DNA from: a virus
IMG/VR virus record: IMGVR_UViG_3300037189_013884
Coordinates: 1 to 22,898 of that record
Reading direction: 5' to 3' (one strand)
DNA: 22,898 nt
Positions 1,339 through 19,941 of this stretch are shown one piece after another; positions within the stretch are counted from its first letter, which is position 1, and every line of letters starts with the position of its first letter. The position numbers were made by a program, and so were the translations under genes. The notes under the pieces were generated by a model. That model saw only the letters and a list, made by a program, of their open reading frames with translations, made no database searches and was not told where the DNA came from.

Positions 1339-4300
1339 ATGGTTACTTATCTAAAATCACCGGTTAAAAAATTCACTCATATAGTTCACGTCGCAGATAT
1401 TCACATTCGTCTTAGTCAACGATATGATGAGTATTTAGAAGTGTTTCAACGTTTATATGATGAAATTGACAAGATGCCAGAAACAACTTTAATTGCTGTT
1501 TTAGGAGATCTATTTCATAGTAAAGCCGCCATGTCACCTGTTTGTTTGACCGCAGCAAACAATTTTTTGAGAGGATTGGCTGATCGACGCCCTGTTATTT
1601 TGATTCCGGGAAACCATGACGCAAATTTAAATAATAAAACTGGATTAGATAGTTCTCAGTCTGTCGTAGATACAATCAGACACGATAATATCTCATTTCT
1701 TCGTAACAGTGGATTGTATATCATTGGAAATGTATTGTTTAATCATTATTCTGTATTTGATGATTATACAAAATATATTAATTACTATAAAATTCCTAAA
1801 AAGTATTTAAATGAAACAGATCATCATATTGCGTTGTTTCATGGACCGGTGCAAGATGCAGTAACAGACGTTGGATATCGTGTAGCAAGTAAAACTGTAA
1901 GCAATAATACATTTGATGGACATCATATTGCATTGTTAGGCGATATTCATCATCATCAACGTTTACAAGAATATAGTGCAAATTATTCTCAGCCTGTAAT
2001 TTTGTATGCAGGTTCAATGGTTCAACAAAACCATGGAGAAAATCTTGAAGGACATGGATATGTACTATGGGAGTTGGATTCTAAAACATATACATTTCAT
2101 GAAATTCCGAATGACTACGGCTATTTTACTATTCTAGTTGAAAATGGAGAATTGAAGACTGACCTTGCTAAGTTACCTAAAAAAACATTTTTACGTGTCA
2201 AGTGCAATCAGACAATTAAAGTAGAAATAGATAAAATTTTACGTGACATCAAAGATAAAACAGAAGTTCTTGAAACCGTATATGAAAAAATAGATTTTAA
2301 AGAATCTGAAAAGAAAAATATTATCGATGTTACAAACATCAATGTTGATAGTATTAATGATCTTGATTATCAAAATCAATTAATTTCAAATTTCTTTAAA
2401 ATTCGTAATATTGAATTGAACGAAGAATTATCTCGTCAAGTTTATAATATTAATAAAGAAATGAATCTACGATTGGAACAAGTTAAGAGTGCTAAAAACA
2501 TTCGATGGAAGCCAAAGAAGTTTCAATTTGAAAATATGTTTTCTTACGGCGACGGCAATGTAATTGACTTTACAAATATGAGAGGAACTGTTGGGTTATT
2601 TGCAAATAATCGCGCTGGTAAAAGTAGTATTCTTTCAGCTTTGTGTTTTTGTATTTTTGATAAATGTGATCGTGCATTTAAGGCGGCTGACATTCTAAAT
2701 ACTCAAAAAATGAGTTTCAATTGTAAATTTAATTTTGAAATCGACAAAATTGATTATTTTATTGAACGTAAAGGTATCCAAGATAAAAAAGGAAATGTAA
2801 AGGTCGATGTTAAATTTTATCGTATCATCGAAGGAGTGATGGAGGATTTGAACGGAGAAGCTCGTAGAAATACAAATGATGTTATTCGTGAATATTTAGG
2901 AACATATGAAGACTTCTTGCTTACTGTATTAAGTATTCAAAACGGTAAAGAAGGAAGTTTCATTGATATGGGACAAGCGGATCGTAAAGATTTAATTTCC
3001 AAATTTATGGGAATTACAGTCTTTGATAATTTGACTGAACATGCCAAGGAAAAATTAAAAGAAGTCAACGCATTGTTAAAATTATATGAGAAAACCGATT
3101 ATCCTAAATTATTGGAGACTCGTATGCATGATATTATTGTCATCGAAAAACAAATAAGTGCAGAGAATAATGAGTTGGAAAAACTAACAGATAAACTTGC
3201 TGTTCAAAATACACGCTTAATTGAAGAAAATAAAAAATTAGTCAATACTGGAAATGCACCAACCAATATTATTGAGTTGGACGCATCCAAAGCTAAATTA
3301 ATTAAAGAAAAATCTGATCTTCAATTGTTGATAGAAAAACAAAAAGTATATTTGACACAAGTCGCAGAGTCATTGGCGACGGTCAAATTAGAAATTGATA
3401 AAATTGACTACGCTACATTAACACAAGAAATTAAAAAATATGAATTGTTAATTGAAGAAAATAAACAATTAAAACATAAAATTGATTTAAAAAATCTAGA
3501 TATAGACAATAAAAAGAAACGCATTCTAAAATTAGAAGAACATAAATATAATCCAAATTGTGAAGCGTGTAGAAGCAATGCGATTGTAAAAGAGTTAGAA
3601 CAAACTAAGAAAGATTTATTAGTTGTTCAAAATGATCAAGTCGCATTAACTAGTAAATTTACAAATAATGTCAACTTAATTGAATCATTGAAATGGGCAT
3701 CAAGTAAAAACACAGAATATATTGAATTGGACAAGAAAAAAATTGATTTAAACAATAAGGTTAATATTGCAACAAACGGAATTCTTAAATCCGAAAGTCG
3801 TTATAATTTAATTGACCGTGAGATTGAAACGGTTCAAAAAAATATTGACGCGTACCATGCTGAAAAAGATGCTATCGAAAGTAATAAAATAATAAATCAA
3901 GTTATTGATAGTATTAAAACAGTTATTAATGGACTCGACAGTAATATTAAAGTATCAAATAAAAAATTAATTGAATTGAATGGAAAATTAACGGCGGCAA
4001 TTGAACAAAAAAATAATTACGAAACTAATATCAAAAATGCCAAAAATTATCAATTAGAACAAGAAGGATATAAATACTATACTATGGCGGTTGATCGTGA
4101 TGGTATTCCATATGAGTTAATTTCACAAGCATTGCCAACATTAGAAGGAGAAATCAATAACATATTACAACAAATTGTTGACTTTACTATTGTACTTAAT
4201 ACAGATGGTAAGAATGTTATTGGATATATATCTGATAATGGACAAAAATGGAAGATGGAATTGGCAAGTGGGTTAGAAAGATTTGTAACATCATTGGCAA

Positions 4301-4539
4301 TCCGAGTGGCATTATTGAACATATCTAACTTACCACGTCCTAACTTTATAGCTATTGATGAAGGATTTGGGTGTGCTGATAAAGAAAACCTAAGCAGTAT
4401 GTCAGCGTTATTATCTCATTTTAAATCAAATTTTGAATTTTTATGGGTAGTAAGCCACTTAGATATGATGAAAGATATGGTAGATCATCAGTTAGAAATT
4501 AAAAAAGAAAAGGGCTTCTCAAAGATTGTTTCGATATAA
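1339..4539 (+). CDS. gp47-gp46: Fused Mre11-like nuclease / Rad50-like ATPase (T4 gp47+gp46, SbcD+SbcC)
   Basis: One 1066-residue chain carries both halves of the DNA-end-processing complex that in T4 is made of gp47 and gp46 and starts recombination-dependent replication and host DNA breakdown. Residues 1 to about 380 are a metallophosphoesterase with all expected motifs: D20-x-H22, G56-D57, G91-N-H93-D, H168-G, and G201-D-x-H204-x-H206. From about residue 400 comes the Rad50/SbcC part: a P-loop at 422-430 (ANNRAGKSS, K428, with Ala in place of the first Gly), a long heptad-rich coiled coil on both sides of a zinc hook C741-E-A-C744, a degenerate ABC signature LASGLER at 975-981, Walker B IAIDEG with D1007/E1008, and the H-loop histidine H1040. 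No stop or frame change separates the halves. The gene starts 2 bases after the primase stop with no Shine-Dalgarno sequence visible. Confidence 0.93.
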   Translation: MVTYLKSPVKKFTHIVHVADIHIRLSQRYDEYLEVFQRLYDEIDKMPETTLIAVLGDLFHSKAAMSPVCLTAANNFLRGLADRRPVILIPGNHDANLNNKTGLDSSQSVVDTIRHDNISFLRNSGLYIIGNVLFNHYSVFDDYTKYINYYKIPKKYLNETDHHIALFHGPVQDAVTDVGYRVASKTVSNNTFDGHHIALLGDIHHHQRLQEYSANYSQPVILYAGSMVQQNHGENLEGHGYVLWELDSKTYTFHEIPNDYGYFTILVENGELKTDLAKLPKKTFLRVKCNQTIKVEIDKILRDIKDKTEVLETVYEKIDFKESEKKNIIDVTNINVDSINDLDYQNQLISNFFKIRNIELNEELSRQVYNINKEMNLRLEQVKSAKNIRWKPKKFQFENMFSYGDGNVIDFTNMRGTVGLFANNRAGKSSILSALCFCIFDKCDRAFKAADILNTQKMSFNCKFNFEIDKIDYFIERKGIQDKKGNVKVDVKFYRIIEGVMEDLNGEARRNTNDVIREYLGTYEDFLLTVLSIQNGKEGSFIDMGQADRKDLISKFMGITVFDNLTEHAKEKLKEVNALLKLYEKTDYPKLLETRMHDIIVIEKQISAENNELEKLTDKLAVQNTRLIEENKKLVNTGNAPTNIIELDASKAKLIKEKSDLQLLIEKQKVYLTQVAESLATVKLEIDKIDYATLTQEIKKYELLIEENKQLKHKIDLKNLDIDNKKKRILKLEEHKYNPNCEACRSNAIVKELEQTKKDLLVVQNDQVALTSKFTNNVNLIESLKWASSKNTEYIELDKKKIDLNNKVNIATNGILKSESRYNLIDREIETVQKNIDAYHAEKDAIESNKIINQVIDSIKTVINGLDSNIKVSNKKLIELNGKLTAAIEQKNNYETNIKNAKNYQLEQEGYKYYTMAVDRDGIPYELISQALPTLEGEINNILQQIVDFTIVLNTDGKNVIGYISDNGQKWKMELASGLERFVTSLAIRVALLNISNLPRPNFIAIDEGFGCADKENLSSMSALLSHFKSNFEFLWVVSHLDMMKDMVDHQLEIKKEKGFSKIVSI

Positions 4540-4544
4540 TTAAT

Positions 4545-7118
4545 ATGGCATATATTTATGAATATATGCCACAATATAGAACAGGTACTAGTTTAGGGTT
4601 AACAAAGCTTAAGGTAGACGCAGAGGATACATCATTTTTATCCTCTGCGTATTTTTTGTTATCAGAATTTGATAATAATTTTAGATTGGGAAAGAATTCA
4701 ATTACTTTAAATAACCCTCCTGCTGATTTAAAAGTTGAAGCATATGATAGTGCAAATAATATTTTATATTTTGAAAAAGCAACTAATAATGATTTTATTA
4801 ATAAAACAAAATCAGTAACTTTATCATTTCATGTATATCCACAAAATAGTAATGGAATCGGTAAAATTATATTGGTAGGAACTTACAATAATAAAATAAT
4901 TCGATATGTAACGATTGTTAATATTGATACCACAACAATCAATAACAGTAAAATTAGATTTTATAATCCGCCGACAATTGAAGTCGCCCCATTATTGGTT
5001 TTTGCAACAAAAACAAACATAAGCGAACTGAATCCGAAAACCCTAACTGGATCGTTTTATACAAAAGCAGTATTACCATCGTCAAATTTTACATTAGATA
5101 ATAAATATAATAAGGATGCTACCGATTATCAAGTTGTTTCAAATTTACCAAATTTTAGTTCAAGTTTGGAATCATTTTATATTAATTTAAATGTAAATAA
5201 AATTAAAAATTTAAATGATGCTGGTGAGATTGTAGTAAATCAAACATCTTCTATTTTAGTTAAGAATGTAGTTAATTCAACTACACTGCAATTAGATACT
5301 CCATACGTATATAATAATTCGGCAAATAATAAATTAACGGTTGCAGAAATAACAAATGGAAATTTTAATATTAACTATTCAAGTTATAATTATAATTCAA
5401 GTTATTTTACAACGCAAAGTTATTTGACTGAAAGCATTGGATTAAATGGAAGTGCAAGATATAAAAAATATTCTATTGCAGAAATTACATATCGTAATCT
5501 AGATACATTTAGTGGAACTGTAGTTCGTCACAAAGTTTATAAAAAGAGTTTAAATATTCAAAGTGATTATACTGTAATCATGGATGAAAATTTTTTAAAT
5601 AATGAAATATTAATAAATTACACGGTTCCAGTTAAAACTTATAAAAATTTAGGATCTTTCTATTCACAAAATTTCATTGATACTTTTTGGTTTACAAGTA
5701 GTGCGGCATTCAATTTAACTTATGATAGTAGTTCATTGATTGACGCAATGAATATCAATGGATCGTCTACAATCACAGATGGATATGTGTTGGTAAAATT
5801 AAATACAGATCCAACTTCAAACAGAAATGTTAATTATATTCCCTATAATAGTACTCAATATGCAGATCAAAGCGGTTCCGCATATGATACAAATTTTTTA
5901 AAATTAAATCAAGCTACTGATTATATATTAAGTTTTAATTGTAATTTAATATCAAAAAATATTTCTGACATTGCTACTTTAGATTTTTATTTAACTGGAT
6001 CTTATATTAATAATAATAAAGAAAAAGATTATAGTGCGCAATACGGAGTTCATCTTGCAAGTTTAAAAATTCCAGATCAAGTTACTTCAAAAAATTATCA
6101 TAATAATTTAAAATTTAAATTTACACCAACTAATGATTTGTATGGTACTCTTGTTATTGTACCTAGAAATTTAAAATCTGTTATAATAAATAAATTATCT
6201 ATCGTTTATGATAGAACTAAAGGATTTAGTCCAAGCTCATATACAGTTCGGGTTCCATTTGATGTAGACCAACCAAAAGAATTATTTGATATTAAAGCGG
6301 AGTTATATGATAATAATTCTAATTTAGTGTATTCAAATTTAAGAACTGTTCAATTATTTGATCCGTCTGGAAGTACTGTAGTATATCCTTTGAATACGGA
6401 TGTTATTACTGCGGGCACTGTAAATGTCACTAATGCATTGAATGTTACAGGAAGTATCAATGTTAATAATTTTAGTTGCACTCCAGCGGATAATTTAAAT
6501 CAAGTTGATTATCTTGTTACTTGGGATCGCAATAATAAAAATTTATGTATTGTAACTTCAAGTGGCATTTCTACTGGAGGTGGATTAACACCCGGTGCTA
6601 CATATCCAATTACAAGTAGCTGGACTAATAATGTTATTAGTTCATCATATGCATTAACAGCAAGTTATATTGCTGGAGTTTCTAATGTTAGTTCAAGTTA
6701 TGCTTTAACCTCAAGCTTTGCAACTAGCGCAAGTGCCGCAATTAATAGTCAAACCGCTTCATTTTTACCAGTAACAACATATTTAATTACTTCAAGTTGG
6801 AGTAATAATAGTTTGACTGCAAGCTATATTACTTCAAGCAACATCACTGGCACGGTTACATCAGCGAGCTATGCATTGAGTAGTAGTTATTCGCCAACAA
6901 ATATTACAAGTAGTTGGTCAAATAATAGCATATCATCGAGTTATGCAACAACTGCAAGTTATGCTCCAACAAATGCTAATTTAACTGCAAGTTATGCAAT
7001 TTTTGCAAGTGTATCAAGTTCATTGAATTTCACAGATGATGTTGGTGCTGCCGCAGGTGGTGTTCCCCTCGGCGGTTTATATCGAAACGGAAACTTTATA
7101 TTAATAAGATTATCATAA
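4545..7118 (+). CDS. Large tail/appendage structural protein with Ser-Tyr repeat C-terminus
   Basis: This is an 857-residue virion protein, probably part of a tail fibre, baseplate appendage or whisker. The first 680 or so residues are rich in Asn, Thr, Ser and beta-forming residues, with few cysteines or charged clusters, as in beta-rich phage appendages. From about residue 688 to 838 the sequence becomes repetitive, with recurring SSYALTASY and TSSWSNN units also found in the N-terminus of the next protein. It ends in a compact Gly-rich tail (GGVPLGGLYRNGNF), which looks like a folded C-terminal cap, so the gene appears complete. The ATG at 4545 has no Shine-Dalgarno sequence; an in-frame ATG at 4566 is an alternative. 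Oddly, a full intrinsic terminator lies inside codons 25-38 and a hairpin covers the start codon. It follows the nuclease gene by 5 bases and precedes the fibre gene by 1 base. No family name can be given with confidence. Confidence 0.75.
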   Translation: MAYIYEYMPQYRTGTSLGLTKLKVDAEDTSFLSSAYFLLSEFDNNFRLGKNSITLNNPPADLKVEAYDSANNILYFEKATNNDFINKTKSVTLSFHVYPQNSNGIGKIILVGTYNNKIIRYVTIVNIDTTTINNSKIRFYNPPTIEVAPLLVFATKTNISELNPKTLTGSFYTKAVLPSSNFTLDNKYNKDATDYQVVSNLPNFSSSLESFYINLNVNKIKNLNDAGEIVVNQTSSILVKNVVNSTTLQLDTPYVYNNSANNKLTVAEITNGNFNINYSSYNYNSSYFTTQSYLTESIGLNGSARYKKYSIAEITYRNLDTFSGTVVRHKVYKKSLNIQSDYTVIMDENFLNNEILINYTVPVKTYKNLGSFYSQNFIDTFWFTSSAAFNLTYDSSSLIDAMNINGSSTITDGYVLVKLNTDPTSNRNVNYIPYNSTQYADQSGSAYDTNFLKLNQATDYILSFNCNLISKNISDIATLDFYLTGSYINNNKEKDYSAQYGVHLASLKIPDQVTSKNYHNNLKFKFTPTNDLYGTLVIVPRNLKSVIINKLSIVYDRTKGFSPSSYTVRVPFDVDQPKELFDIKAELYDNNSNLVYSNLRTVQLFDPSGSTVVYPLNTDVITAGTVNVTNALNVTGSINVNNFSCTPADNLNQVDYLVTWDRNNKNLCIVTSSGISTGGGLTPGATYPITSSWTNNVISSSYALTASYIAGVSNVSSSYALTSSFATSASAAINSQTASFLPVTTYLITSSWSNNSLTASYITSSNITGTVTSASYALSSSYSPTNITSSWSNNSISSSYATTASYAPTNANLTASYAIFASVSSSLNFTDDVGAAAGGVPLGGLYRNGNFILIRLS
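4547..4570 (+). promoter_or_regulatory. Hairpin overlapping a start codon
   Basis: A perfect 9-bp inverted repeat (GGCATATAT / ATATATGCC) with a 6-base loop starts at the G of the ATG at 4545 and takes in the second in-frame ATG at 4566. In mRNA it could partly bury both starts and slow initiation. The stem is mostly A-U, so it is only moderately stable; a regulatory role is inference. Confidence 0.45.
4618..4657 (+). terminator. Intrinsic terminator inside the 5' end of a structural gene
   Basis: A perfect 12-bp stem (ACGCAGAGGATA paired with TATCCTCTGCGT, 4618-4629 with 4639-4650) encloses a 9-base loop and is followed by A and six T residues (4651-4657). This is the standard form of a Rho-independent terminator. 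It lies at codons 25-38 of the structural gene starting at 4545, just past the replication/recombination genes. It would end transcripts arriving from that module unless they are antiterminated or the hairpin is kept open by a translating ribosome. Confidence 0.85.
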
Positions 7119-7480
7119 TATGTCACTACAATTATCAGCCAGTTTAAATCTCACCGGTTCATTAAATTTGAGCGGCAGTATGTCTGCAACTCAAGTTTTA
7201 AATATCACTGCAAGTGTTGCTCAAAACAGCATCACTTCCAGTTACATATCAGCAAGCAATGTAACAGGAACTGTAGTTTCATCTAGTTATAGTTTGAGCA
7301 GCAGTTACTCTCCAACGAATATTACAAGTAGTTGGAGTACAAATAGTTTAACTGCAAGTTATATTACTGCAAGTAATGTAGTTGGTACTGTAACGTCTGC
7401 TTCATATTCACTAAATTCAGGTACTTCAAATACTGCTAGTTATATCAATGCGGCTAATGTGAATGGAACAGTAACTCAAG
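6600..7480 (+). repeat. Shared Ser/Tyr-rich repeats spanning two adjacent structural genes
   Basis: The 3' end of the gene at 4545 and the 5' end of the gene at 7120 contain related repeats encoding SSYxLSSSYSPTNITSSW and GTVTSASY units. One clear DNA pair is 6891-6917 and 7309-7335, which encode the same nine residues, SPTNITSSW, and differ at only a few positions. The units recur several times within each gene. They could pair by recombination and change repeat number or join the two genes. Confidence 0.8.
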
Positions 7481-10215
7481 CATCTACAGCAAGTTATACA
7501 AATCCAAATAATACATATGCAATGAATTATTTGAATATTGCCGGTGACGTTAGTGAACGTGGAAAATTGTTAACACAACGCTATGTTGGATACATGGGAA
7601 ATACTGGTGCAAGTGGTTATTATGACGGTTATATCAACAGTAGAGCTACTTCGGGAACATATGTGTATAATTCATCACTTGACAATGTATTATACAATGC
7701 AGCAACTCGGTTTGCATTGCAAGTCAATAATACATCAAGTGCAAATAATGGATATTTTGATGGAAATTTTGGTTCCATTGCATATAATGTAGCAATTAAT
7801 GACAGCGCATCGTTTTATTTAAATTTTACAGGTAGTAAAGGTGTAAATGGATTTACTTATCCACAAGGATATGTTTATTTAAATTTTTACTATACAAGTA
7901 ATCCACTGAGTTGCAGTGGCTATACAACACACAACGGAGTTCAATATCCAATTACAAATTGGACAATTATTAATGGTACCTCAAGTTCTATTTGGCAAGT
8001 TTGGCGCGGCACAGTAAACGCCAATAATTATATGCAAGATATGTTGGTTGCTGTTACTGCAAGCGCAACCACAATTGCAAGTTTAGTAGAATGGGAATAT
8101 GCAATGACACGTCCCGGTGAAGCTGAACCCACCGTTATTACAAAATATAATGATAATAGCTATTACAATAAATTAACATTTTATAACACCAGTAATACAG
8201 CAAGTATTGTATTGAATCCAAATGCTAGTAGTTATTTTACTAGCAATCGATTGGGTATCGGAACAACCAGCCCAAGTGGATATTTAAATGTATATAGCGG
8301 TTCTTTAAATACAATTCCGGCAATTAAAGTAGAAGGTGCCACCACTGGAACACCATCTATCATTGGATTAGATATTGCTAATGCAAGTAGCAGTAATACT
8401 CCACAAGTTCAATTTACTTTGGAAAAAAGTGTAGCAAAAGCATTTGAAATATCTACAAAATCAGGTAGTGCATCATTAACAAGTCGTTTAACGATACAAA
8501 CAGATACAGGAAATGTTGGAGTGGGTACAACAACACCTTTAAATCTACTGGATGTCAAAGGAGCGGTAGCGATTGGAAGTACGTATGCCGGAACAAACGC
8601 TGCACCATCAAGTGGTTTGTTGGTGCAAGGTAATGTTGGTATTGGAAGCACAAATCCAGCGAATGCATTGGATGTTGTTGGAAATATTAGTGCAAGTGGT
8701 ACTGGAAGTTTTAATCGCCTTGGTATTGGATTAACATCACCAAACGCTCCGGTTCACATCAGTAGTTCATTAACCGGACAAGCAATAATTTTAAATATTC
8801 AAAGTGCCGGTCAATCTCCCGGCATTCAATTGACGGGCACAGATAGAACTGCGGCGATTTATCCAAATGGTCGTTCCGGCGGTATAAGAAGTACAACATT
8901 AGATTTATGGACAGATAATGCGGCGTATATTAATTTTTTTAATACTAATGGAACCACTTATTATGGTTCGGTAGGACAACTTAGTGCAACTGTATTTTCT
9001 ATTACTAGTAATAGTAATTTACAATTGGGTGCGAGTGGTTCTACTCAAGTATTTATTAGCAGCAGTGGTAATGTTGGTATTGGAACTACAAATCCATTAA
9101 ATAAATTAGATGTACTTGGTAATATTAGTGCAAGCAACATTACGGCAAGTTTATTTTTTGGTACAAGTAGTTGGGCAACTCAAGCATTAACAGCTAGTAG
9201 TTTGGTTCCAACAAACAGTTATACCGTAACAACATTCAATGTAAACAGTTCGGGTAGCACAAGCGCATCAACAAATGGTTCATTGACAATAACTGGTCAA
9301 AATACCAAAGGAGGCAGTAATTATCATGACTTTTTATATACAACCAATACTGTTGCTGGTGCCGTTAATGCAAATAAATATTTCCGTCAAGATAATACAG
9401 GAAATTTTGAAATAGTTAATAGTGCTTATAATAATACAATTTTTACATTAACTGACAGTGGTTCGTTGCAATTACCAACTGCACAAAGTGCAAATGTCAC
9501 ACAATTAAGAAATACAGGCGCAGGGTTAAAAGTTGGTAATTATGGATTGCTTTTTGACGATGGTAATGTTCATTTACATAGCACGAATCCTAATTCTAAT
9601 CTTTGGTTAAATTGTTCTGGTTCTGGTCTTTTCATAATAAATGGTCAATCAGGTGCTACCGGTGGTGTAGGTATAGGTACATCCATCATGTCTGGTTATG
9701 TAACAATTAATGGTGGGTCAAATGTTACTATAGGTGCATATGGATATTTGATTAATACGGGCAGTCCTCCTACGGGCACAGGTGGTGGAACAACAGGAAC
9801 TTTTAGTATAACTTGTACTCAACGTGTTCAAGCAACTGAATTTGATGCTACTTCAGATGAAAGATTAAAAAATATTGAGGGTGAAATACCATTAAATGAA
9901 GCGGTTGATTTAATAAATAAAATTATACCAATCAAATATAAATGGAAAGATGGTGTAGATACTGGAACAAAGACTGGCTATTCCGCACAACAAGTATATA
10001 AAGCTGGATTTGATCATTTAGTTGGAGTAGTTAAAAAAGACGGAATGGAAGAAATTATTGATGAAGATGGATTTATCAATCCAAAAGATGCTCAGTTTGT
10101 AATGAATTATGAACAAGTAACTCCATATCATAGTAAATTAATTAAATATTTAATTGATAAAATTGAACGCATGGAAATTGAAATACAATTATTAAAATCA
10201 CAAGTAAATAGATAA
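7120..10215 (+). CDS. Tail fibre with GIGTTxP repeats and C-terminal S74 chaperone domain
   Basis: This 1031-residue protein is a trimeric tail fibre or spike that would contact the host surface. The N-terminal 130 residues hold the Ser/Tyr repeats shared with the previous gene and may be the site where the two proteins bind or align. A unique beta-rich stretch follows (about 135-370), then six copies of a (L/V)G(I/V)G-type unit, often followed by TTxP and LDVxG, with glycines at about 379, 467, 507, 535, 653 and 851, typical of long fibre shafts. Residues from about 903 to 1031 are a peptidase S74/endosialidase-type intramolecular chaperone: SDERLKN with the Ser912 and Lys917 expected for autocleavage, GYSAQQV, and a final coiled coil (about 1003-1031). 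The domain trimerises the shaft and normally cuts itself off after folding. The start lies 1 base after the preceding stop, without a Shine-Dalgarno sequence. The receptor is unknown. Confidence 0.9.
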   Translation: MSLQLSASLNLTGSLNLSGSMSATQVLNITASVAQNSITSSYISASNVTGTVVSSSYSLSSSYSPTNITSSWSTNSLTASYITASNVVGTVTSASYSLNSGTSNTASYINAANVNGTVTQASTASYTNPNNTYAMNYLNIAGDVSERGKLLTQRYVGYMGNTGASGYYDGYINSRATSGTYVYNSSLDNVLYNAATRFALQVNNTSSANNGYFDGNFGSIAYNVAINDSASFYLNFTGSKGVNGFTYPQGYVYLNFYYTSNPLSCSGYTTHNGVQYPITNWTIINGTSSSIWQVWRGTVNANNYMQDMLVAVTASATTIASLVEWEYAMTRPGEAEPTVITKYNDNSYYNKLTFYNTSNTASIVLNPNASSYFTSNRLGIGTTSPSGYLNVYSGSLNTIPAIKVEGATTGTPSIIGLDIANASSSNTPQVQFTLEKSVAKAFEISTKSGSASLTSRLTIQTDTGNVGVGTTTPLNLLDVKGAVAIGSTYAGTNAAPSSGLLVQGNVGIGSTNPANALDVVGNISASGTGSFNRLGIGLTSPNAPVHISSSLTGQAIILNIQSAGQSPGIQLTGTDRTAAIYPNGRSGGIRSTTLDLWTDNAAYINFFNTNGTTYYGSVGQLSATVFSITSNSNLQLGASGSTQVFISSSGNVGIGTTNPLNKLDVLGNISASNITASLFFGTSSWATQALTASSLVPTNSYTVTTFNVNSSGSTSASTNGSLTITGQNTKGGSNYHDFLYTTNTVAGAVNANKYFRQDNTGNFEIVNSAYNNTIFTLTDSGSLQLPTAQSANVTQLRNTGAGLKVGNYGLLFDDGNVHLHSTNPNSNLWLNCSGSGLFIINGQSGATGGVGIGTSIMSGYVTINGGSNVTIGAYGYLINTGSPPTGTGGGTTGTFSITCTQRVQATEFDATSDERLKNIEGEIPLNEAVDLINKIIPIKYKWKDGVDTGTKTGYSAQQVYKAGFDHLVGVVKKDGMEEIIDEDGFINPKDAQFVMNYEQVTPYHSKLIKYLIDKIERMEIEIQLLKSQVNR

Positions 10216-10318
10216 AAGATTAAAAAAACCCATAAATATTATAATCTTGAGTTTTTGACATATATTTATATTTAGTTTTACAAAACAAACTATTTGATTT
10301 TGAAAGGAATTATTATAT
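10216..10318 (+). promoter_or_regulatory. Intergenic leader of the tail sheath gene with candidate late promoter
   Basis: This 103-base gap is almost pure A/T. It holds an ATAAATAT at 10232-10239, resembling the T4 late-promoter core TATAAATA, and a TATATTTATATTT at 10261-10273; both also occur upstream of the gene at 18050. A weak imperfect hairpin (AAAAACCCA pairing with TGAGTTTTT, about 10224-10256) could be a poor terminator for the fibre gene. An AAGGA at 10304-10308, 10 bases before the ATG, is one of the better ribosome binding sites in the window and fits an abundant product. The promoter assignment is tentative. Confidence 0.4.
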
Positions 10319-13300
10319 ATGCCAATTACTGAAGGTGGAAAATTTAGTCCTGAAGACAGAATTGTGAGTCCCGGTGTCTTCACACGCGAAAATGATTTGA
10401 GCGGGGTTGCTCAGGGGGTTGCAGACATTGGTGCTGCAATTGTTGCTCCATTTGCCCAAGGACCGGGATTTGCTCCAACATTAGTTACTAGTACAGCCGA
10501 TCTCGAAAGTAAATTCGGGGTAGCTGATGGAGTATATTATGGTCCATATACTGCAAAAGAATATTTAAAAGAAAAAGGATTTGTAACGGTTGTTCGCGTC
10601 GGCGCATTGACCGGATATAATCAAAAAAATCCTTTCGTTATTTATGCAGAACCGGGTACATGGGCACGTAGTGGCAGTGCAGGATCATTAAATAGTGGCA
10701 GTTCTTATGTTTTGTATGATAGTACCAGTACCACCACATTAAGCACTTCATTTAGCTATACTAGTGGTTCTTCACCAAGTAATGGTACTTTAGCATTTAA
10801 GAGTGGAACTTCTTTCATTGGTAAATTTGCCTCAGTTGCTGGTGATAGCACAGGAAGTAATTCTGGAACCGGCAGTGCATTATATTATGGAAATCAATAT
10901 TCGTTTGCATTTACAAATGATACGACTGCATCAACTTCTTATGTTTCTAGTAGTATTCAAGGAAGTGGTGCCCAAACCAGCCTTGCTAAATTATTGCAAG
11001 CATTAAGCGAAACCGGTGGAGTGACTGGATCAGGAGTTAGTGGTTCCTTTACAACCTCTGGTATTACAGTTACTAACACTGATAATGGTATTATTGCAGT
11101 TGGTGCATTAAGTTTAATTAGTGGTTCATTCACATCATCTCGTTCAACAGTTGGTTGCGGTGTCCAATTATTGGTTAATGGTGTAGTTAGTGGTTCATTT
11201 GGTAAAATTACTGGTGCATTCACAACACAATTTACATCAAGTGCAGATCCATGTAATCCAGTAAGTAGTTCAAGATATCCATTAGTATTAGCTGTTTTGG
11301 CAGATACTCAACATGCAACTATTGGTTCTAATTTGAATGCTCCGGGATTCAGTGCAAGCGCATTTGCTGCCGCAACAGCATCTAGTGGAACTTATCAAAA
11401 TATGTTTGATTTTGATGCTCAAAATTTCAGATTAACTTTGGTATCAAGTGGTTCACAAGTTGGTGTATATGATTTCTCAGTCAATCCAGCAAATAGTAAA
11501 TATATTAGTAATGTATTTGGAACTGATGCGACTGCTGGTAATCCAGCTACGCAAGTTACTGGAACCAAGATTGAAGCTGCATATTTGTATAAATTCTTTG
11601 AAAGCAGTGTTAAGAGAGTTTCCGCAGGTTATGTAACTGAAGGTTGGAGAGTTACTGGTTCTGCATTACCAAGTGTAGGAAATACATTTAGTAGTGGCGA
11701 ATTGATGACTTTCACTGATGCATATTCATTAAATTTGAATGCAGGTGATAGTTCATTTAGTTTGACAAATGCAAATACTCCTTGGATCATGAGTCAAAAA
11801 ATTGCTCCTTGGAGTACCGATGGTAGTTCAACTACTTCAACTAAATTCCAATTGTTCCGTGCTCATACATTGTCTGACGGAACCAACATGAATACTAAGT
11901 ATAAAGTTGAAATTAGTAATGTTAAATTGGCAGGAACAGTTGCAGGTAGTGATTGGGGTACATTCACATTAGCAGTACGTGATTATAGTGACACCGATAA
12001 AAAGCCTAAATATTTGGAAATCTTCCAAAATTTAAGTTTGGATCCAGACAGTGCAAATTTCGTTGCTCGTCGTATTGGTGATCGTTATAATTATATTACT
12101 TATTCAGGTAAAATTATTGAATTTGGTACTTATACCAATTTGAGTAAATATATTCGTATTGAAATGAGTGATATTGCTTATCCTGTCAGTGCAGTACCTT
12201 ATGGATTCCAAGCATATAGTACTCCTGTAAGTAGTACATTGACTAAATATGTTCCAGTTGTCAAATATAGTAAAGCAAGTATTTATGGACAAGCTCCGGG
12301 TAAATATCCATCTGGCACCGTCTTTGGAGATAATCCATTGGGCGCAGATTCCGAATTGACTGCATTATATCCAACCGCAAGTGTTGGTGTTAGTGTAGCT
12401 GAAGATACAATTCAATATTTTGCTCCATTACCAGCATTCGAAGCATATGATAGTAACGGATCAAATTGTGACTTTGATTTGGGTGATGAAATTGGAACTG
12501 GTTCATATGGCGATCTTGCTACCACCGGTAGCTTGTTGCCAGCAGCAACTAGTGGAAGTGTTCCATCAACCTACGACAGCGCAAATGAATCAAATTATGT
12601 TAAGATGCGTAAATTCATTGTTGGTTTCCAAGGTGGATTTGACGGTCAAAGTCCAGCAGTACCAATTAATGTTGGTGGCGATATAACCGCAGGTAATACT
12701 CAAGGTTTGAATTGTGTTAATATCAATAGTGCAGGTTCAATAGCATACAAGCAAGTTGTTGGTGCATTAGGAAATGCAGATGAATTTGATATTAATTTGA
12801 TTGCAACTCCGGGTATTTTCCACAGTCAGCATAGTTATGTAGCACAACTTGTAATTGATATGTGTGAAGCTCGCGGCGATTGTTTCTACATCATGGATAA
12901 CATTGTATTCCCTAAGAGTAATCAATCGGTTGGATTGATTGATGCAGCAGTTAATGATGTATCAACTATCGACAGTAATTATGTTGGAACTTATTATCCT
13001 TGGATCAAGATTCTTGATACTAACTTGAATAAGATTATCAGTGTTCCTCCAAGTGTAATCATGCCAGCAGTTTATGCTGCAAATGATAATGCAAGTGCAG
13101 AATGGTTTGCACCAGCAGGATTGAATCGTGGTGGAATTGCACAAGCTGTTCAAGTGTTGGATCGTTTGACTCATGCAGAACGTGATGTGTTGTATGAAGG
13201 TCGTGTTAATCCAATCGCAGCATTTCCGGGTCAAGGAATTTGTGCTTGGGGTCAAAAGACTCTTCAAATTGCTCCAAGTGCATTGGATCGTATCAATGTT

Positions 13301-13628: not shown

Positions 13629-13662
13629 AAACCCTGCCAGTTTTATTCTGGCAGGGTTTTTT
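13629..13662 (+). terminator. Intrinsic terminator after the tail sheath gene
   Basis: A 9-bp GC-rich stem (CCCTGCCAG / CTGGCAGGG), extended by AAA/TTT pairs to 12 bp, encloses a 7-base TTTTATT loop and runs straight into six T residues (13657-13662). It begins 23 bases after the sheath stop codon and would end sheath transcription before the packaging genes. Confidence 0.95.
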
Positions 13663-13741
13663 ACTGAAACTATAAAATAAAAAAATGCATTAGAAAACTT
13701 GCAATTATATATAGTAGAGTAGTTTATATCAATCGTTATAT
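13663..13741 (+). promoter_or_regulatory. Gap between terminator and packaging operon; promoter expected
   Basis: Because a strong terminator precedes it, the packaging genes need their own promoter in these 79 A/T-rich bases. A TATAAAATA at about 13671-13679 resembles the T4 late-promoter core with one extra A, and TTATATATA lies at about 13705-13713. Neither can be chosen with confidence from sequence alone. No Shine-Dalgarno sequence is visible before the ATG at 13742. Confidence 0.3.
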
Positions 13742-17970: not shown

Positions 17971-18049
17971 ATGTTGGATAAATATCGCTTTTAAATCAAT
18001 TTTACATAAATTTCTCTATATTTATATTTTAACGGAATAGAACATCATT
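17971..18049 (+). promoter_or_regulatory. Candidate promoter region before the prohead-core genes
   Basis: This 79-base gap contains ATAAATAT at 17978-17985 and TATATTTATATTT at 18017-18029, the same two A/T words found upstream of the tail sheath gene. The second ends 20 bases before the ATG at 18050. No terminator is visible after the portal gene. Sharing of both words suggests phage late promoters, but random A/T richness could give the same result. Confidence 0.35.
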
Positions 18050-19410: not shown

Positions 19411-19941
19411 ATGCCTGTAAGCTTAAGAAGATTGATTGATTTAGGAGAAGCAGATGTGCCTGTCGCATCTGCTCCTTCTCCTGTTGTTGCACCTTCGAAT
19501 CCGCCATCTGGAGGACAAGAATATAATGTTGGATTAGATTTTACAAATTTTGAAAAGACTCTTGCGAATTTTACTGAAAATTCAAAAAACGCATTTCAAA
19601 ATAAATTATTAAGTCTAGTAGGCAATAAAAAAGTATTTTTGCGTGGTAGCAAAGGCTATGGTCAACCAATTAAAGATTATACTATTAACGTAAAAAGTGT
19701 TAGTATTGATTTTTATTATGAGCGATATGTTGTTGTTTTCAAAGATGAAGATGATAAAGAATATTTTTTGGAACCAAATTATCGTATTAAAATTTTAGGT
19801 ACTGCACAATTTATGCCTAAGACAGTTAGACGTAAGAAAAAAGTCGCAGAACCAACTGTTCCGCCAGTTAATCCTGATGTTACACCACAAGGTCAACAAA
19901 ATAAGCCTAGTCAAGTAAATCCATCAAATCCAAAAATTTAA
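19411..19941 (+). CDS. Small protein with putative protease cleavage site, candidate prohead core component
   Basis: A 176-residue protein of unknown family. Residues 1-14 end in LGEA (L11-G12-E13, then A14), which matches the T4 gp21 cleavage rule, so the N-terminus may be removed during capsid maturation. An Ala/Pro linker (about 15-35) leads to a compact central domain (about 40-140) containing NVGLDFTNFEKTLANF, LVGNKKVFLRGSKGYG and a strand-rich SIDFYYERYVVVFKDED segment, so it appears folded, unlike its neighbour. The C-terminus is basic and then Pro/Gln/Asn-rich. It lies directly before the prohead protease gene (8-base gap), in the gp67/gp68 region of T4. Its role is a positional inference strengthened by the cleavage motif. 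Confidence 0.65.
   Translation: MPVSLRRLIDLGEADVPVASAPSPVVAPSNPPSGGQEYNVGLDFTNFEKTLANFTENSKNAFQNKLLSLVGNKKVFLRGSKGYGQPIKDYTINVKSVSIDFYYERYVVVFKDEDDKEYFLEPNYRIKILGTAQFMPKTVRRKKKVAEPTVPPVNPDVTPQGQQNKPSQVNPSNPKI

Follow-up and report, generated by a model that had tools for sequence, protein, structure and literature searches.

In phage T4, genes e, soc, 49, and I-TevI carry a hairpin that hides the start codon in early read-through RNA, with a late promoter located in the 5′ strand of the hairpin (PMC3014915). The interplay of translation and intrinsic terminators has been described in E. coli, where ribosomes finishing translation repress almost completely a terminator located just a few bp beyond the stop codon, with termination recovering as the distance grows, and where termination persists within the first 100 bp of a coding sequence; a translated terminator 30 bp after the start codon lost only approximately 10% of its efficiency and gave rise to non-stop mRNA (PMC4824070). 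PeSLs are promoter-terminator cassettes of T4-like phages (Arbiol 2010 and Comeau 2014, according to their citation in PMC4503421). Here we describe a viral locus in which an intrinsic-terminator-like hairpin (H2) is located within the first codons of a putative structural gene (p3) whose start codon is itself found in the arm of an upstream hairpin (H1); in the part of the literature covered, we found no description of a naturally occurring embedded terminator combined with a hairpin that hides the start codon.

The window, i.e., the whole stretch of DNA analysed, is a 22.9-kb viral contig (33% GC) of a T4-like myovirus, as indicated by a T4-type portal and terminase, a prohead protease, and a tail sheath (Pfam and PHROGs); its terminase is approximately 50% identical to the terminases of Flavobacterium and Microcystis phages. 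Pfam, PHROG, and family searches identified a replication block that includes a DNA primase gene (404–1336, + strand) and ends with a gene (1339–4539, + strand) encoding SbcD and SbcC (Mre11/Rad50-type) fused in a single chain, referred to here as SbcCD. This chain of 1066 aa, which joins the SbcD nuclease and the SbcC ATPase, was found in the window and in every relative fetched; the T4 counterparts are encoded by separate genes, 47 and 46. The SbcCD stop codon (4537–4539) is followed by p3 (most likely 4566–7118, + strand, by alignment to relatives), an ORF of more than 800 codons that encodes a structural-type protein with no match in Pfam or PHROGs, then by a gene for a tail fibre with a Peptidase_S74 chaperone, and then by the sheath gene, which starts at 10319. 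The border between replication and tail genes proposed in the sequence-only reading of this DNA thus held. Searches of annotated phages with the region (nucleotide) and with p3 (protein) gave no matches, and the SbcCD-p3 arrangement was absent from the 31 kb around the terminase gene in both Flavobacterium phage immuto and Microcystis phage Mel-JY01, the phages with related terminases. The module between SbcCD and the sheath gene differs among lineages, some of which carry other gene types there; three loci (L030, L031, and L097) lack p3 and the tail fibre gene (window 4540–10318), and the sheath gene, with its own promoter-like motif, directly follows SbcCD.

H2 (4618–4657, + strand) was characterized by folding, by comparison with relatives, and by synonymous recoding. 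It comprises a left arm ACGCAGAGGATA (4618–4629), a 9-nt loop CATCATTTT (4630–4638), and a right arm TATCCTCTGCGT (4639–4650) that form 12 of 12 Watson-Crick pairs, six of them G-C, followed by an A and then TTTTTT (4652–4657), with the T tract present on the + strand only. The perfect 12-bp stem and six T's reported earlier were therefore correct to the letter, and H2 has the sequence features of an intrinsic (Rho-independent) terminator, i.e., a G+C stem-loop followed by a U-rich tract; a generic terminator scan passed over it solely because the loop limit of the scan was 8 nt. The minimum free energy (MFE) of the RNA from 4612 to 4660 was −19.2 kcal/mol (z = −6.0 versus dinucleotide shuffles). 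When the 33% GC window was shuffled 200 times with a Markov model, a 12-bp stem enclosing a loop of 3 to 12 nt appeared 0.045 times per window, and stems of at least 10 bp with at least 6 G-C pairs plus a T tract did not occur at all. None of 5000 synonymous recodings of the window codons matched the stability of H2; a stem of at least 12 bp was present in 111 of 20,000 recodings of the H2 codons, showing that the stem is compatible with the protein sequence but not explained by it. A dispersed repeat was rejected as the origin of the arms, as their only exact matches were the two arms themselves, and an Rfam search of 4300–5000 yielded only a sub-threshold chance match to Aar (22 bits; cut-off, 60).

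Viral contigs supplied 78 distinct junctions downstream of SbcCD. The two closest loci (L084 and L085), which are 59% and 58% identical to the window over the first 300 p3 residues, both present a 12-bp stem, a 9-nt loop, and a T-rich tail at the same codon positions as H2 in the window, i.e., ATGTAGAGGACA-9-TGTCCTCTGCAT ATTTTATT in L084 and ATGTAGACGACA-9-TGTCGTCTACAT ATTTTTTA in L085; the SbcCD stop is located 78, 78, and 74 nt upstream of H2 in the window, L084, and L085, respectively. Across the three genomes all 36 cells of the helix were paired; four of the 12 pairs carried changes on both sides, and no pair was disrupted, while in slid controls for the H1 and H2 helices together only 19–62% of cells paired. 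Recodings as stable as the native hairpin were rare in both relatives (2/2000 in L084 and 1/2000 in L085). An alignment of related phages had been proposed in the sequence-only reading as a check for compensatory changes; such changes, as expected of a terminator stem, were found in L084 and L085, including at synonymous sites. The shuffles, the recodings, and this conservation bear out the earlier view that H2 is unlikely by chance, and both chance and protein constraint are effectively excluded as its origin, although the comparison involves just three sequences. Together these features support H2 as a conserved, directional, terminator-like element at a putative early/late border.

A clean H2 (hairpin plus T tract) in p3 was found in these three genomes only. 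Two other loci (L127/L026) carry a differently placed p3 hairpin with a T tract (ACCCGTTG..CAACGGGT TTTT), in another (L141) SbcCD and the sheath gene are separated by a terminator of the ordinary intergenic type, and most other lineages showed no junction terminator within 330 nt. Overall, seven terminators were found at the SbcCD junction across relatives versus 3.7 expected, a mild enrichment suggesting that H2 belongs to one clade and not to all relatives. In a separate set of loci, group B (L103, L017, L105, L010, L008, L022, and L024), the first ~130 nt of p3 form a long stem (GAAATACCGGACAAAA..TTTTGTCCGAGTATTT); this stem occupies the same codons as H2, shows some covariation, has no free T tract, and in most members is more stable than synonymous recodings.

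A second hairpin, H1 (4546–4571, + strand; identified by folding and in relatives), was overlooked in the earlier description of p3. It consists of an 11-bp stem and a 4-nt loop (TGGCATATATT-TATG-AATATATGCCA), with the p3 start codon in the right arm. L084 has no in-frame ATG at the position homologous to 4545, its homologous ATG corresponds to 4566, and in relatives the start codon is located within the right arm of the corresponding hairpin; p3 therefore probably starts at 4566 and not at 4545, which places H2 at codons 18–31 instead of codons 25–38, as had been given before, and leaves a gap of 26 nt between the SbcCD stop and the p3 start. The corresponding gene start carries an H1-type hairpin in L084 and L085 as well as in many divergent relatives, which rebuild the stem with very different letters (ATATGTATTGT..ACAATACATATGG, GGGTATATATA..TATATATGCCC, CCATAGG..CCTATGG, and others), indicating that H1 is more widely conserved than H2. 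For the gene after SbcCD, folding of the 60 nt around the start yielded a median z of −2.24, with 51% of 45 distinct junctions below −2, as compared to a median of 0.12 (5% below −2) for other motif-bearing starts and 0.45 (1.7%) for starts without the motif; the 45 junctions include related, non-independent loci, and the contrast is large and extends across unrelated hairpin sequences. The computed probability that the AUG is paired was 1.00 in the window, L084, and L085, i.e., the start codon is predicted to be sequestered as in the T4 gene e-type hairpins. When the RNA 5′ end was placed 12 nt or less before the ATG, computed AUG pairing fell from approximately 1.0 to 0.61, 0.29, and 0.59 (window, L084, and L085, respectively), so that the shortened window RNA still shows pairing of approximately 0.6. 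No clear Shine-Dalgarno sequence was found upstream of p3.

The left arm and loop of H1 contain a late-promoter-like motif, TATATTTATG (4551–4560, + strand), recognized by enrichment, strand bias, and comparison with relatives; it is located 5 nt before the p3 ATG, with the same spacing in L084 and L085. The same motif, as TATATTTATA, is found upstream of the sheath gene (10261–10270, + strand), and TATATTTATA precedes structural genes both in the window (10261–10270 and 18017–18026) and across the phage group. In the fetched loci ATATTTATA occurred 297 times on the + strand versus 42 times on the − strand, and 96 copies were located within 60 nt upstream of the 803 distinct gene starts, as compared to two for its reverse. 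This strongly strand-biased motif, located 10–45 nt before structural genes of the phage group, represents a candidate late promoter and reads as the reverse complement of the T4 TATAAATA core. The T4-type late promoter itself was rejected, as TATATTTATG does not match the TATAAATA consensus and copies of the latter with up to one mismatch were not enriched in the window. No exact copy of the motif was found at the group B p3 starts, and a search of six relative contigs for a late sigma factor with a general model of sigma70 region 2 gave nothing above the cut-off. It is plausible that TATATTTATG is a late promoter overlapping the p3 start; the late promoter anticipated in the sequence-only reading may exist, although its motif lies upstream of H2 and overlaps the gene start, whereas a position downstream of H2 had been proposed.

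We consider it fairly probable that H2 as a terminator, H1 as a start-hiding structure, and the overlapping late promoter together form a barrier against read-through from early into late genes. As a selected terminator, H2 would keep transcripts of an early replication operon, which comprises primase and SbcCD together with a RuvC-like gene in relatives, from running on into the late tail cluster. Its location inside p3 may be explained by the short SbcCD-p3 gap, since ribosomes completing SbcCD would inactivate a terminator near the stop. In read-through RNA, H1 would pair the p3 start codon, so that no p3 would be made from early RNA and no ribosomes would be stranded on stop-less mRNA; it is from this reasoning on the short gap and on non-stop mRNA that we infer a joint role for the two hairpins. 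RNA from the replication genes that passes the border would thus probably be both cut off and left untranslated. The late polymerase would start at TATATTTATG. T4 late transcription starts approximately 6 nt after the promoter motif, and with the same spacing here late RNA would begin at or just before the AUG and lack the H1 left arm, which would render it translatable. The earlier proposal that H2 stops early transcripts is thus consistent with a conserved, directional, terminator-like element at the border, with termination as such predicted from its sequence.

Late polymerase may get past H2 as part of a modified elongation complex, through partial read-through, or with the help of rapidly loading ribosomes. 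Hairpin melting by ribosomes, as suggested earlier, would probably not suffice, given that the E. coli terminator near a start codon lost only ~10% (PMC4824070). Ribosomes probably reach H2 too late, which suggests that late polymerase must ignore H2 or that some late RNA is lost; a terminator this close to the start would be expected to cost some late RNA as well, and with no known antitermination factor in this system, this counts against the barrier. Further points against it are the confinement of a clean H2 to three genomes, the group B stem lacking a free T tract, the lack of a junction terminator in most other lineages, the negative sigma factor search, the difference of the motif from TATAAATA and the missing exact copy at group B p3 starts, and the residual AUG pairing in the shortened window RNA.

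The arrangement resembles the T4 start-hiding hairpins in that the start codon is paired in read-through RNA, a promoter-like motif is located in the left arm, RNA started at that motif would lose this arm, and similar structures are present in related phages; it differs in its candidate coupling to an embedded intrinsic terminator, in its motif (TATATTTATA instead of TATAAATA), and in having no evident Shine-Dalgarno sequence. As with tR2 engineered into E. coli coding starts (PMC4824070), the terminator-like hairpin lies within the first 100 nt of an ORF; H2, however, is natural, is maintained by compensatory changes at the same codons, and is paired with a hidden start codon. H2 and the motif would also form a promoter and stem-loop terminator composite at a gene border, as in PeSLs. 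The latter are reportedly intergenic, with early promoters and with the terminator upstream of the promoter, and assignment to this class was rejected since H2 is located inside the p3 ORF and downstream of a late-like motif found before structural genes. Leader-peptide attenuators such as that of pyrBI likewise link translation state to an intrinsic terminator in translated RNA; however, no leader peptide and no sensed metabolite are involved here, the terminator is part of a structural gene, and the distinction is presumed to lie in the promoter from which the RNA was transcribed. The location of H2 within an ORF of more than 800 codons, together with the lack of any antiterminator pairing that competes for the H2 arms in the MFE fold, led us to reject this class as well.

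An alternative is that H2 attenuates all transcripts, including late ones, and sets the RNA level of p3, the tail fibre gene, and the sheath gene without acting as an early/late barrier. Translation does not abolish termination within the first 100 bp of a gene (PMC4824070), and nothing was found that lets late polymerase ignore H2; however, the sheath gene has its own motif at 10261 and would need no read-through, and H2 accompanies a start-hiding hairpin at the replication/tail border, with a similar embedded hairpin at the opposite edge of the block in L084 and L085, making attenuation unlikely. We consider it somewhat less likely still that H2 is an RNA-stability or processing hairpin that shields the SbcCD message at its 3′ end or directs cleavage, without terminating transcription. 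The strong, partly covarying group B stem suggests that structure without termination is possible in these codons, but the T-rich tail directly after the stem is retained in all three genomes of the clade, as expected of terminators and unneeded for stability. A translational coupling role for H1, in which a ribosome terminating at the SbcCD stop would unfold the left arm and thereby permit p3 translation on the same mRNA, with H2 melted by the ribosomes that follow, appears improbable: the left arm begins 7 nt after this stop, within reach of a terminating ribosome, and the lack of a clear Shine-Dalgarno sequence would fit, but the arm bears the motif seen before other structural genes, a structural gene tied to the translation of a replication gene would be made early, and H2 would have no purpose. 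Least credible, to the point of being nearly negligible, is a stem that arose by chance or as a by-product of the protein sequence, as stems of this length did appear among recodings (111/20,000) but none of 5000 was as stable, and L084 and L085 rebuild the stem with other letters, also at synonymous sites.

If correct, the read-through barrier would show how early and late genes can be insulated in phages with almost no intergenic DNA, and a terminator placed in codons behind a hidden start would also avoid stranding ribosomes on stop-less RNA. With this locus, the question of whether late-modified RNA polymerase disregards intrinsic terminators can be asked in a concrete setting, and the analysis yields a candidate late-promoter motif for a large group of uncultured T4-like phages.

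In the L084 and L085 contigs, the replication block (RuvC-like gene, 213-aa protein, primase, and SbcCD) is located inside the structural cluster, and a second embedded terminator-like hairpin was identified at its upstream edge, in codons ~9–18 of the RuvC-like gene (L181 13230–13310, − strand; L184 19690–19790). These hairpins (GGCCACC-GTTG-GGTGGTC TTTTTTT and GACCACC-GTAG-GGTGGTC TTTTTTT) were matched by only 2/3000 and 1/3000 synonymous recodings, and the gene carries a further hairpin at or just before its start codon; conserved RuvC residues contribute to the stem, which makes the evidence from this border weaker. Tentatively, and with somewhat less than even confidence, we propose a two-hairpin read-through filter, in which a promoter overlaps a hairpin at the start codon and a terminator follows within the first codons, and through which a gene would accept only RNA from its own promoter; both borders of the replication block would be insulated in this clade, with the filter acting on p3 after SbcCD and on the RuvC-like gene after the preceding late gene.

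Across 1.8 Mb of fetched DNA we identified 29 distinct strong terminator-like hairpins outside ORFs and seven inside; six of these seven were located in the first 150 nt of the ORF, three of them representing H2. An ordinary intergenic terminator (13629–13664, + strand), a stem followed by a T run with a homologous hairpin in L004, was found after the sheath gene of the window and served as a comparison. Another embedded terminator-like hairpin (AAGCAACTTC..GAAGTTGCTTTTTTT) is located at position 13563 of L013, in codons 14–25 of a group B gene encoding a 990-aa protein; a hairpin of this type was found in the same type of contig region in L018 and L010 and, in weaker form, in L006. The window also contains a 15-bp hairpin with one mismatch (19443–19479) in codons 11–23 of the ORF at 19411, whose T-poor tail makes a role as terminator doubtful. 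Finally, a very stable hairpin (CTGCACACGGGAATAG..CTATTCCCGTGTGCGG) was found at position 466 of L123, within the opening codons of an ORF that is rich in repeats and similar to HNH-endonuclease-associated proteins.
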